A model generated the notes under the pieces. It did no database searches, had not been told where the DNA came from, and worked only from the letters and a program-made list of their open reading frames with translations. A program made the position numbers and the translations under genes. This document shows positions 11,472 through 29,904 of a DNA stretch of 37,532 bases, piece by piece. Position 1 is the first letter of the stretch. Each line of letters begins with the position of its first letter. Origin of the DNA: a virus. The stretch is from positions 1 through 37,532 of IMG/VR virus record IMGVR_UViG_3300030389_001063; one strand, given 5' to 3'.

Positions 11472-12983
11472 TTGGAGCTGGCTAAAGCATTTGACGATTT
11501 ATTTAAGGGTTCAGAAAGAGCCCATGGCACTTTTAATGTCGATGAAACTAATAATGGTCAAAAGAAGTCAGGAGTTGCTAAAACTATTAAAACTGTAGGT
11601 GCCTCCTTAAAAAATTGGCAAAATCATTTAGAGGGTATAATCGGCTTAGGTATTATACCTATCAACGAAAATAATCAAGTAAGGTGGGGCGTTATAGATA
11701 TCGATACGTACTCACTTGATATCCCTAACTTAGTAAAAAAGATAGAAAACTTTAATCTACCGCTAGTGGTCTGTAGGTCTAAAAGCGGAGGTGCACATGT
11801 TTTTTGTTTTATGAAAGAGTTTATTTCTGCTGGTGATATGCAGGACAAGTTAAGGGAGTTATCGGCTGGTTTAGGTTATGGCGGAGTTGAAATATTTCCT
11901 AAACAACGTGAGGTCTTAGTAGATCGTGGTGATATAGGTAGTTGGTTAAACATGCCTTATTTCCAAGGTGCCACCTCTACTAGGTACGCTCTAGACCCCC
12001 AGAGCGGTATAGCCCTAACTCCCTCCCAATTTATTAATCTTAGTTTAGAACGTAGCTTAACGTTAGAAGAATTACAAAAACTAACCGTACCTGAAGTTGA
12101 TGAATTAGAGGGTGGACCACCGTGTTTAAAAACTTTATTAAAACAAGGTTTCCCTGAGGGTACACGTAACAACGGTCTATTTAATGTAGGGGTTTATTTA
12201 AAACAAGCTACGCCTGAAAGTTGGGAAACTGAAATAGAAGAGTATAACCGTAAGTTCGTTATACCGCCGTTACCCGCTCAAGAAGTTTTAGGGTTAATCA
12301 GTACACTAAAGAAAAAAGATTATAACTATAAATGTAGTGATGAACCTATACGTTCTTATTGTGACGTTAGTAAATGTCGTACCTGTAAGTTCGGGGTAGG
12401 CTCTAGTAACACTACGCCTATGTTTTCTAGTTTAGCTAAACTTAATTCATCTCCTCCTTTATGGTTTTTATCTATAGACGATAAACGTTTAGAACTAACT
12501 ACTGAACAGTTACAGAATCAAACTAAGTTTCAAAGAGCGTGTATGGAGATATTAAATTTGATGCCACCTAAAATGAAAGAGGTTTCGTGGCAGGCTATGA
12601 TACAAAGTTTAATGGATAGTGGTATGGAGATTATAGAGGTAAGTTCAGACGTATCTACTGAGGGTCAGTTCTTAGAGTTACTTGAATCTTTTTGTACTGA
12701 TGTAGCCCAAGCAGGTACACGTGAAGAAATATTGTTAGGTAAACCATTTACAGAAGAAGGCATTACATATTTTAGAATAAAAGATTTACGTGAGTTTTTA
12801 CTAAAGCACAGGTTTACTGAACTAGAAACTAATAAGATAGCCAGTAAGTTAAGGGATATGAAAGCACAGACTAAGTTCTGGAATATAAAAGGTAGAGGTA
12901 CTAACGTTTGGTATGTCAAAGCCTTTGAGTATAAAGATGAAACACTAGACGGACATGACTTTGAGGAGCGTGGGTTACTATGA
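11472..12983 (+). CDS. Archaeo-eukaryotic-type primase (AEP superfamily)
   Basis: A 503-residue protein. The catalytic core shows RWGVIDIDTY (D76, D78 as the metal-binding pair) and CRSKSGGAHVFCF (103-113, the Ser/His nucleotide-binding motif), followed by GGVEIFPKQ and GSWLNMPYFQ, a combination typical of phage/TOTE-like AEP primases. Four cysteines at 288, 297, 302 and 305 likely bind zinc or an Fe-S cluster. The C-terminal 200 residues look like a winged-helix-type region. There is no helicase domain; the next gene provides one. The start is TTG, chosen because AGGAGAG lies 3-9 bases upstream, and no ATG fits in frame before the core. Confidence 0.85.
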   Translation: MELAKAFDDLFKGSERAHGTFNVDETNNGQKKSGVAKTIKTVGASLKNWQNHLEGIIGLGIIPINENNQVRWGVIDIDTYSLDIPNLVKKIENFNLPLVVCRSKSGGAHVFCFMKEFISAGDMQDKLRELSAGLGYGGVEIFPKQREVLVDRGDIGSWLNMPYFQGATSTRYALDPQSGIALTPSQFINLSLERSLTLEELQKLTVPEVDELEGGPPCLKTLLKQGFPEGTRNNGLFNVGVYLKQATPESWETEIEEYNRKFVIPPLPAQEVLGLISTLKKKDYNYKCSDEPIRSYCDVSKCRTCKFGVGSSNTTPMFSSLAKLNSSPPLWFLSIDDKRLELTTEQLQNQTKFQRACMEILNLMPPKMKEVSWQAMIQSLMDSGMEIIEVSSDVSTEGQFLELLESFCTDVAQAGTREEILLGKPFTEEGITYFRIKDLREFLLKHRFTELETNKIASKLRDMKAQTKFWNIKGRGTNVWYVKAFEYKDETLDGHDFEERGLL

Positions 12984-22997: not shown

Positions 22998-23629
22998 TAG
23001 GTAAAGACAAACAACTAGAACCCGTACTATGTGCCTTAGATACCTGTACCGAACCCGTTACTGGTAATCAAGAAAAATTTTGTTCTAAAAAATGTTGTGT
23101 TAAGCATAACTATAAACGACATAATAATTATGCTAAAGGCGTTTATAAAGATTTAGATTTGGGTGCTGGACCCAGAAGTTTAGTTAGCCCAAGTTCTATA
23201 AAACATAATGAGACACACGTTTCTATTACTAACTTCGCTGTAGATGACTACCACGTTGACCCAGATATTTACGCCATAGCGGAAGCTAATCACGAGAAAT
23301 ACATACGTGATAGAGATGAGTACGAAGCTAGAGTAGTTATTGACGGTTTACAGGTATTTAAAGAAGCTTATAATGAGCACCACGATATTAAATATGAAAA
23401 AACAGCTTCTGAAAAAATTAGAGCTAACTATACTGAAGACCAAAAAATACATAGAAGAAACGTTAATAATGAGTATACACGTAAAAATAGAGAAAAAATT
23501 AGGGCTAAGGCTAGAGCTAGATATAGAGCTAACCCAGATAAATACAATGAAACTAGAAAAAAGTATAATTATTACACTAAACAACCTGACTTATTTAAGT
23601 TTGAAAAATGGCTAAGAAAAAGAAGTTAA
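22970..23629 (+). CDS. Zinc-binding phage protein with basic C-terminal helix
   Basis: A 219-residue protein. CALDTCTEPVTG and KFCSKKCCVKHN give a four-Cys zinc site near residues 21-42, probably a treble-clef or FCS-like finger. The C-terminal 60 residues are a highly basic helix (NREKIRAKARARYRANPDKY), similar to the linker of phage HNH/endonuclease VII-type proteins, but no HNH catalytic motif is present. Nucleic-acid binding is likely; nuclease activity is not supported. It overlaps the terminase small subunit gene by 22 bp. Confidence 0.7.
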   Translation: MAYRDTRVVIGKDKQLEPVLCALDTCTEPVTGNQEKFCSKKCCVKHNYKRHNNYAKGVYKDLDLGAGPRSLVSPSSIKHNETHVSITNFAVDDYHVDPDIYAIAEANHEKYIRDRDEYEARVVIDGLQVFKEAYNEHHDIKYEKTASEKIRANYTEDQKIHRRNVNNEYTRKNREKIRAKARARYRANPDKYNETRKKYNYYTKQPDLFKFEKWLRKRS

Positions 23630-24081
23630 CACCAAGACAAGAAAAGTACGCCCAGAACGTAGCTAAAGGTATGAGTAAAAAAGAAGCTGCAGTTGGGGCG
23701 GGATATAGCGAAAAGAATGCAGCTAGAGCGGGAAGTATGCTAGACAGTAAAGCTAACCCGTTAGTGAGTGAACGTATACAAGCCTTACAGAAAAAAGCAG
23801 CCAAGAAAGTAGAGCTTGACCTTAGTACCCATTTAACTGATTTAAGAGACATACGTGAGGGAGCCGTGCGTAACGGTGCTTGGTCTGCTGCTGTAACTGC
23901 GGAAGTTGCTAGGGGTAAGGCAGCAGGACTTTACATTAACCGTAGTGAGTTAGTAGTTAATAAAGTAGAGACTATGAACAAAGAACAAATACTAGAACGT
24001 TTAAAAGAATTATATTATGAAACTGGCGGTATATTACCAGCGGGTAAAATAATAGAAGGAGACAGTGAAAGTATTGACTGA
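23608..24081 (+). CDS. terS: Terminase small subunit
   Basis: A 157-residue protein with the Terminase_2-like N-terminus: KKKLTPRQEKYAQNVAKG, SKKEAAVGAGYS, then SMLDSKANPLVSERIQAL. This helix-turn-helix region binds the packaging site on phage DNA. The C-terminal part (KEQILERLKELYYE) may oligomerise or contact the large subunit. It is placed 8.2 kb away from the terminase large subunit gene, with many accessory genes between. No ribosome site is obvious, and it overlaps its neighbour on each side, so coupling is likely. Confidence 0.9.
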   Translation: MAKKKKLTPRQEKYAQNVAKGMSKKEAAVGAGYSEKNAARAGSMLDSKANPLVSERIQALQKKAAKKVELDLSTHLTDLRDIREGAVRNGAWSAAVTAEVARGKAAGLYINRSELVVNKVETMNKEQILERLKELYYETGGILPAGKIIEGDSESID

Positions 24082-28434: not shown

Positions 28435-28610
28435 ACCCTATTACCGACCTATTGCCTATTTGAAGACAATAGTATTTAGTTGGGTAATTATTGGTACCAA
28501 CTAAAGTAAAACATGCAGCAGGTTTGGTAATTGAAATAACCGAATATCTACTCTATATATAGAGACAACTGAGAAAGCCTAGAGACAAGGACAACGGACC
28601 AAAATATATG

Positions 28611-28630
28611 GACCATTGACCATTGACCAT
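28611..28630 (+). repeat. 7-bp tandem repeat GACCATT
   Basis: Two full copies and a partial third (28611, 28618, 28625). A similar 7-bp tandem, AGCCAAT, lies at 28673-28689. Confidence 0.75.
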
Positions 28631-28765
28631 GAGACAAAGACAAAGACATCATGATCGTGATGCAAAGACAACAGCCAATAGCCAATAGCACACGGACCAT
28701 GATCCGTCGTCCGTGGTTCATCATGATCATGATCAAAATTAATTTAACTTTTTTTACAAAAACAC

Positions 28766-28794: not shown

Positions 28795-28838
28795 ATACCT
28801 TGTATTAATTAATTAGGGCTATGCCCAGGAGGACTAAA

Positions 28839-29093
28839 ATGTCAAAAGCTAATACAACTAAAAAATCCGCTACTGCGGTCAAACCAGCTACTAACCCAGC
28901 TGTAACTTATGTCGATACTAGTAAAGCTAGAGTCGAGGGTGTTAACCTTAACCAGACTAGACTTAAAAAAGCTAGTAAGTGTGCCACGCTCAACGACCTA
29001 GTTACTGTGTACTCCGAGTTGTTTGGTAAAAATAACTACAGAGCGCATCTTAACTATGACATTAAGAAGGGTGCTATACAGCTACAGAGCTAA
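28839..29093 (+). CDS. Hypothetical small basic phage protein (84 residues)
   Basis: Not recognised. The N-terminus is Ala/Lys/Thr-rich and disordered (KANTTKKSATAVKPATNP); the C-terminus has ATLNDLVTVYSELFGKNNYR, a compact helix-strand block. AGGAGG (28827-28832), 6 bases upstream, decides the start at 28839 rather than 28821. It has its own promoter upstream and terminator downstream, so it is a single-gene transcript, and the 12-bp palindrome TGATCATGATCA lies on both sides. Confidence 0.75.
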   Translation: MSKANTTKKSATAVKPATNPAVTYVDTSKARVEGVNLNQTRLKKASKCATLNDLVTVYSELFGKNNYRAHLNYDIKKGAIQLQS

Positions 29094-29108
29094 TCTGTAG
29101 CGTCCTTG

Positions 29109-29139
29109 GAGGGTGGCCAGTGGACCACCCTCTTTTTTT
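29109..29139 (+). terminator. Rho-independent terminator after the 84-residue gene
   Basis: GAGGGTGG (29109-29116) pairs perfectly with CCACCCTC (29125-29132), followed by seven Ts (29133-29139). It ends 46 bp after the stop codon. Confidence 0.93.
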
Positions 29140-29544
29140 GTCCCCAGTGTTGATCATGATCACACAGTCCTTTAGGTAAAAAGTAAGTACTTACTATCGC
29201 TGAGACGCGAGCAGAGCTGTTCATCCAGGCGTCGCTGCGCGACACACAGCGTCCAGCAGAGCTGGACCACATACCATGGAGCGTGCCTACGGCACGCAGA
29301 GAGGACGCAGGTTTACTTTGCATTTACTCTTGGAAGAAGACACTCAGACCGCTGACGAGGATTTACAGTCCTTCCAGCGAGGTCGCAGCAGAGCTGCGAC
29401 ACAGACACCCCCACCCCCCTTATACGGCTAACGGTATATAGGTAGCCTATACTAACATTTTCACGCTCATTTACCGTAAAAATTAAGTTTTGAACTAAAC
29501 GTCCTATACTAAAATTTTTTGCAAAATTTTTTTATAATATTGAG
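29140..29544. other. Intergenic region with GC-rich hairpin island
   Basis: 405 bp without a convincing gene. It includes palindromes TGATCATGATCA (29151-29162) and AGTAAGTACTTACT (29182-29195), then a GC-rich part; 29191-29310 is about 62% G+C by my count. It ends in an AT-rich part with the dyad TATAGG/CCTATA (29436-29450 area) and two copies of CCTATACTAA, before the gene at 29545. Confidence 0.75.
29210..29400. repeat. Array of GC-rich hairpins sharing AGCAGAGCTG
   Basis: AGCAGAGCTG occurs three times (29210-29219, 29255-29264, 29387-29396). Two copies sit in perfect hairpins with loop CAGAG: GTCCAG/CTGGAC (29251-29267) and GTCGCAG/CTGCGAC (29382-29400). Other perfect stems are GTCGC/GCGAC (29231-29243) and GCGTGCC/GGCACGC (29281-29297). 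No T-runs follow, so they are not terminators. Confidence 0.8.
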
Positions 29545-29904
29545 ATGTCAAAACGCTTAGTAAATTATTTTGAATCAATCAAAGAAGTTTGTCCTTACTC
29601 AGCTCCATCATTTAAAAACGGTAAACTATTAGTTTTAGATTATGACCCTAAGTTAATAGAAGAGTATTATCAAGTAATAGATGACTATGATGCTATTATG
29701 TTTGAGTGTCACCCCTCGACGTCTCGCGACTCATTAATGTCCATACTAGAAGATCTATACGACGAGCGACCACGAGCCAAGTGGTTTTGGTCACACCCTA
29801 AGGACAAGCACCACAGTACACCTAAACCTAGTATAATAATGCAAAATAAAGTAAACTTGAAAAAAGCACGTAAGGAATTTTTTAGTAAACATGTCACTAG
29901 GTAA
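29545..29904 (+). CDS. Hypothetical phage protein (119 residues)
   Basis: Not recognised. An acidic N-terminal half (LDYDPKLIEEYYQVIDDYDA) and a basic, His/Trp-rich middle (RAKWFWSHPKDKHHSTPKP). Cys and His residues could bind metal, but no known motif is clear. No ribosome site is obvious after the AT-rich leader. It overlaps the large downstream gene by 14 bp, so it is probably the first gene of the late packaging operon. Confidence 0.65.
   Translation: MSKRLVNYFESIKEVCPYSAPSFKNGKLLVLDYDPKLIEEYYQVIDDYDAIMFECHPSTSRDSLMSILEDLYDERPRAKWFWSHPKDKHHSTPKPSIIMQNKVNLKKARKEFFSKHVTR

Follow-up and report, generated by a model that had tools for sequence, protein, structure and literature searches.

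A lineage-specific array of mini-hairpins beside the late genes of uncultured ocean phages: a candidate DNA-level control element

What is a cluster of small, GC-rich hairpins doing where the replication module gives way to the late genes in a phage with a mean G+C of 37.1%? The window analysed here is the whole of the viral contig IMGVR_UViG_3300030389_001063, 37.5 kb (37,532 nt) long and classed as linear in IMG/VR. It encodes a terminase large subunit, a portal protein, a family A DNA polymerase and an AEP-TOTE primase, as well as UvrD and SNF2 helicases, thymidylate synthase and Pam3-like proteins. Among cultured phages, Pelagibacter phage HTVC027P has the closest terminase, with 61% identity. 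Because the contig of one relative reaches 62 kb and the HTVC027P genome 57.6 kb, the contig is probably a fragment. It belongs to a lineage of uncultured ocean phages related to HTVC027P and HTVC023P and kin to SAR11 viruses, and we infer that its host is probably SAR11-like. The region showed no direct DNA similarity to named phages.

Anatomy of the control locus

The left part of the noncoding locus (28500-28760) is composed of AT-richer palindromes and GATC-rich repeats, and includes the linker ACAAAGACAAAGAC (28634) and the GATC-rich repeat TGATCATGATC (28724-28735), of which a second copy lies at 29151-29162. In the contig and in nearly all relatives read, these left-part motifs are confined to a stretch of about 1 kb. 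A small gene of 90 aa follows on the + strand (28821-29093, ...LNYDIKKGAI...). It belongs to a family of paralogous proteins of 75-99 aa, which have a basic tail at the N terminus and an LNYD motif at the C terminus, and the members tested had no match in Pfam or PHROG. The family is present in up to two cassettes at the locus, with further copies elsewhere (L009 940-1182 and 1504-1746; L025 1567-1794 and 2272-2505; L051 6760-7032). In most relatives the small gene lies on the opposite strand, and its orientation flips even among close ones, being + in the contig and - in L002 and L003. The gene is followed by its intrinsic terminator, GGAGGGTGG...CCACCCTC-TTTTTTT (29108-29139, + strand), outside the hairpin array. 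The palindrome AGTAAGTACTTACT (29182-29195) adjoins the array in most relatives and is absent from L009-L012, L087, L090 and L091.

At 61.7% G+C, 29191-29310 surpasses every other 120-bp window of the contig; this agrees with the value of about 62% given in an earlier note on this sequence. The island includes a decayed hairpin, CGAGC-aga-GCTgt (29208-29220), whose stem is reduced to 3 bp; in the close relative L017 it is intact, as a perfect CGAGC-aga-GCTCG. It is followed by GTCGC-tgc-GCGAC (29231-29243; bottom-strand loop GCA), GTCCAGC-aga-GCTGGAC (29251-29267), GCGTGCC-tac-GGCACGC (29281-29297; bottom-strand loop GTA), a longer imperfect hairpin CGCTG...CAGCG (29350-29379) that is present in predicted folds, and GTCGCAGC-aga-GCTGCGAC (29382-29400), which is identical in the nearest relatives. 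The three copies of the loop sequence AGCAGAGCTG that had been reported before were located at 29210 (in the decayed hairpin), 29255 and 29387, and neither strand of the contig carries another. Counting as perfect the hairpins with stems of at least 5 bp, the segment 29191-29400 holds four, against a mean of 0.16 and a maximum of 2 in dinucleotide shuffles (four reached in 0 of 5000). The earlier count of four perfect hairpins is therefore right, but not their placement in 29191-29310, since three lie there and the fourth falls in the wider 29191-29400. Fold z-scores were -3.8 for RNA of the + strand, and -4.0 and -4.6 for DNA of the + and - strands.

As also remarked earlier, no T-run stands behind the array hairpins. 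They were rejected as intrinsic terminators on this ground, the sole qualifying site (29108-29133) being outside the array, 3' of the preceding gene. A tRNA was likewise sought and none was found. Searches of the contig and 15 relatives with Rfam covariance models gave nothing at gathering scores and only weak sub-threshold matches, so that a known structured RNA was rejected too.

Past the array comes a near-invariant C-tract, CCCCCACCCCCC followed by TTAT (29408-29419), which occurs once per genome. A late promoter-like site on the + strand, TTAAGT-16-TATACT (29483-29510), has its -35 starting 63 bp beyond the C-tract, and the conserved ATTTTTTGCAAA (29514-29525, + strand) stands immediately ahead of the first gene of the late operon (29545-29904, + strand). 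This gene encodes a protein of 119 aa (mean column identity 75% in A1), the core of which, WFWSHP...PSIIMQNK...ARKEY, is strongly conserved; the gene always comes directly after the control locus, and tblastn did not find it in named phages. An 810-aa gene, the terminase large subunit and the portal lie downstream. The -35 of the contig itself (TTAAGT) is weak; in most relatives the promoter takes the sigma70-like form TTTACT-16-TAGAAT. Between the C-tract and the start of the -35 lie 62-64 bp in 29 of the 29 core regions in which a promoter was recognised, by a regular expression picked after the sequences had been seen, and this distance is close to six turns of B-DNA. The sequence of the spacer differs among distant members, and a spacer that keeps its length but not its letters suggests that a protein complex assembles on one face of the DNA.

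Distribution of the array among relatives

Relatives were gathered by searches with the neighbouring proteins and the C-tract. These yielded 42 non-redundant loci with the C-tract and the late core, and hairpins precede the core in nearly all of them. The order of the locus is small gene or genes, the palindrome GTAAGTACTTAC, hairpins, CCCCCACCCCCC-TTAT, about 60 bp of variable sequence, promoter, ATTTTTTGCAAA and late operon. Each relative carries one to seven GC-rich hairpins with A/C-rich linkers between them, and both hairpin count and promoter distance differ from one relative to another. Analysis of seven long relatives together with the contig indicates that the locus motifs are almost exclusive to this stretch.

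Since the same motifs and order recur in independent contigs of other metagenomes, such as L017, an assembly chimera, a worry of the earlier note, is ruled out. Transfer from another source, which the note had also proposed, is unsupported: the commonest unit of the relatives, TTCCCTGCGGGGCACACAG, was found in this phage lineage only among 2.9 million viral contigs, and in 0 of 84,980 bacterial and archaeal genomes. Import is disfavoured because this unit was not found outside the lineage. The C-tract gave 93 matches in viral contigs, the majority of them in unrelated sequence. The idea of a mobile hairpin family holds in that the hairpins do form a family, but not as regards mobility across the genome, since in the genomes read they are at this locus only. 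Bacterial REP/BIME repeats are likewise GC-rich palindromic units of variable copy number; the array differs from them in being limited to one phage locus, with no host copies of the unit searched, and a REP-like mobile family was rejected for the absence of dispersed copies and the restriction of TTCCCTGCGGGGCACACAG to the lineage. A protein-recognised site, the remaining suggestion of the note, is still a live reading at the level of DNA; for a packaging site, positive support was not obtained.

In two distant relatives, L127 and L204, the core of C-tract and promoter is present at 63 bp without such hairpins, which indicates that the hairpins are not needed for the core and are a lineage-specific addition to an older one. 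Upstream of the C-tract in the subgroup of L011, L012 and L091, poly-C stretches and ATCTAT repeats replace most of the hairpins and the GTAAGTACTTAC palindrome is missing. A tandem duplication in L025 (around 2690-2790) comprises the palindrome and a CCCTGCGGGGC unit (about 45 bp), that is, a local duplication of array units.

Stem changes and loop types

Comparison of close relatives revealed stems in which both arms had changed together. GCGTGCC/GGCACGC in the contig reads GTGTGCC/GGCACAC in L017, with the loop tac in both (C-G to T-A); GTCGCCC/GGGCGAC in L020-24 corresponds to GTCGCAC/GTGCGAC in L021 (C-G to A-T); and GCGAGC/GCTCGC in L002 to CCGAGC/GCTCGG in L003 (G-C to C-G). Either selection for pairing or template switching that involves the two arms (PMC8604942) can produce such compensation, and the data fit both.

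The loops follow a rule. Among 61 unique hairpins the closing pair is C-G in 57; of the hairpins at other places in these genomes, 8 of 22 close in this way (Fisher p 2e-7, relatedness ignored). The triloops are TNC or ANA in 37 of 39 cases (20 TNC and 17 ANA), nearly all of them closed by C-G, against 2 of 10 elsewhere (p 4e-6, relatedness again ignored), and the tetraloops are mostly TNNC, with TGAC the commonest. Read on the bottom strand, TNC becomes c(GNA)g and TNNC becomes c(GNNA)g; the tetraloops are then mostly GNYA, which is outside the RNA family GNRA. All arrays share one orientation relative to the late genes, which means that the feature has a strand. In DNA, ANA loops are closed by a sheared A-A pair. 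For the c(GNA)g loop of the phage N4 promoter hairpin, a sheared G-A pair has been reported to give stability and extrusion at sub-physiological supercoiling, and N4 hairpins tolerate stem changes that preserve pairing (PMC4496689). On the letters of the loops, the rule and the GNYA tetraloops together lean towards DNA rather than RNA. Standard nearest-neighbour energy tables for DNA, which hold no special triloop terms, did not separate the array triloops from others, and the balance of G-T and A-C pairs gave no clear signal as a discriminator between DNA and RNA (internal G-T 2 and A-C 4 among 148 centres).

Candidate roles of the array

We tentatively favour the reading that the island is a lineage-specific hairpin platform that works as DNA in the late-gene control region, an account that we hold to be possible rather than established. 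The anatomy, the once-per-genome position, the compensation in stems, the loop rule and the fixed spacing of C-tract and promoter are observed, and the retention of structure and loop type while the letters change speaks for a conserved control element rather than junk or a faulty assembly. According to this proposal, the loops belong to a sheared-pair type, c(ANA)g on the top strand and c(GNA)g or c(GNNA)g on the bottom one, that would allow short hairpins to be extruded from DNA that is single-stranded or under negative supercoiling. Once extruded, the hairpins might then serve as a docking platform for one or more proteins, acting beside a palindromic operator and a C-tract about six helical turns from the late -35, and the outcome would be control of the switch to late transcription. 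It counts against this reading that L127 and L204 have an equally spaced core with no such hairpins, that hairpin count and promoter distance vary, and that the -35 of the contig is weak. A more specific version, in which an extruded array with the rule C-TNC-G / C-ANA-G (top strand) controls the late genes, and perhaps replication, through a host or phage protein and without a phage RNA polymerase, as a DNA-structure switch not described before, appears rather doubtful.

The early promoters of N4 are DNA hairpins with a stem of 5-7 bp and, on the template strand, a C-G-closed GNA loop of 3 nt with a sheared G-A pair; they are read by the giant virion RNA polymerase that the phage encodes. The array resembles them in its short GC-rich stems, 3-nt loops, c(GNA)g on one strand and stem letters that are free as long as they pair (PMC4496689), and by their sequence 20 of the 39 triloops (the TNC class) read as GNA with C-G closure on the bottom strand, which the AGA/ACA hairpins do not. 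N4, however, needs a purine at the loop centre (-11) as well as -10G and -8G, whereas T, C and A occupy the central position in the bottom-strand loops of the array (GTA, GCA and GAA); and the array consists of several hairpins in a row followed by a sigma70-like promoter. A search for phage RNA polymerase (PF00940) in nine records gave no match, the control set being silent too, and in the relatives of 62 and 52 kb the biggest ORFs tested proved to match tail spike families. N4-type promoters are therefore unlikely, given a free loop centre and no RNA polymerase of their own found in the relatives searched.

It is rather improbable that the array acts instead as a structured RNA, with the + strand transcribed and the hairpins and unstructured A/C-rich linkers forming a leader, a regulatory RNA or an insulator, Rho- or hairpin-based, that separates early from late genes. 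The + strand linkers (A 33%, C 29%), the strong RNA fold (z -3.8), some tetraloops of UNAC type and the T-G pair kept on the + strand in the TGTCCC/GGGGCA unit speak for such an RNA, and good + promoters lie right upstream of the array in L025, L026, L031 and L091. Most arrays, including that of the contig, nevertheless lack a convincing upstream promoter and the conserved late promoter begins past the array, so that the array is generally no leader of the late mRNA. The stems are almost purely Watson-Crick, the bottom-strand GNYA tetraloops do not follow GNRA, and Rfam is without a match; UNCG tetraloops were rejected because the register is wrong for most stems, and we know of no RNA loop family of the form c(UNC)g. 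Equally improbable, in our estimate, is a neutral or selfish origin, in which local duplication multiplies palindromes, template switching keeps the arms perfect without functional selection, and the loops are just whichever ones fold most readily in single-stranded DNA. Homogenisation of palindrome arms by template switching is documented in yeast (PMC8604942), and the joint change of arms without intermediates, the fast shifts in copy number and order, the local tandem duplications in L025 and L024 and the existence of relatives without an array all fit it. Against it stand the single locus, the uniform orientation of the arrays with respect to the late genes and the persistence of a loop rule across most of the lineage.

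Less probable again is a replication origin or single-strand initiation site whose hairpins are read by the phage AEP-TOTE primase. Such a primase is encoded in the contig (PF22548 match, 11472-12983, E 1e-9) and in most records searched (phrog_21866 in 7 of 10), and palindromes, GATC clusters and GC-rich and AT-rich parts occur together once per genome. There are precedents: the RepB' primase of RSF1010 reads a hairpin site, and ssiA/ssiB have in common with the array a hairpin flanked by single strands, together with an AEP primase (PMC4434180), while pRN1 requires a stem-loop conserved in structure and not in sequence, again with an AEP primase in the same genome (PMC4234260). The pRN1-type origin of AEP primase plasmids and some phages, however, is one stem-loop of about 100 nt, and here many tiny hairpins lie about 17 kb from the primase gene; unlike ssiA/ssiB the hairpins are multiple, and the GTG that should lie 3' of the hairpin has no consistent place, being found in 35% of bottom-strand 3' flanks and absent on the top strand. 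HTVC027P and HTVC023P carry the primase without an array, and fourfold-site skews across the island shift only modestly, in a direction unlike that of a bidirectional origin and, if anything, towards converging forks. A packaging signal or physical genome end is very improbable. The island is just upstream of the operon with terL, and 13 of 51 contigs begin at most 1 kb upstream of the first late gene, with one ending at most 1.5 kb downstream; yet the ends are scattered over 120-970 bp, as assembly trouble in hairpins or variable sequence would give, and the terminase small subunit gene is elsewhere (23608-24081).

If the hairpins do act as DNA, the idea known from N4, extruded hairpins as regulatory sites, would extend to phages that apparently use the host RNA polymerase, in relatives of phages that infect one of the most abundant bacterial groups of the sea. 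Concrete, testable predictions follow from the loop rule and from the spacing of six turns. Even under the neutral reading, the array would be a clean natural example of palindrome arms that co-evolve.

Other observations were made along the locus. In the genome-scale relatives G002, G004, G005 and G007, as in the contig, + strand genes on the late side of the island consistently have lower fourfold-site T-A and G-C skews than those on its early side. The clustering of contig ends (13/51) in the IMG/VR contigs of the lineage is a sign of assembly breaks at the locus. No mini-hairpin array was seen in HTVC027P or HTVC023P. In the cultured phage HTVC023P, one strong hairpin, CCCTGGCGC-tagc-GCGCCAGGG, stands right before terL (MN698239 17025-17046; L038 7774-7795), and HTVC027P has a repeat-rich noncoding stretch followed by a + strand gene upstream of terL (MN698241 about 17.6-18.2 kb; L037); both are possibly analogous to the array site.
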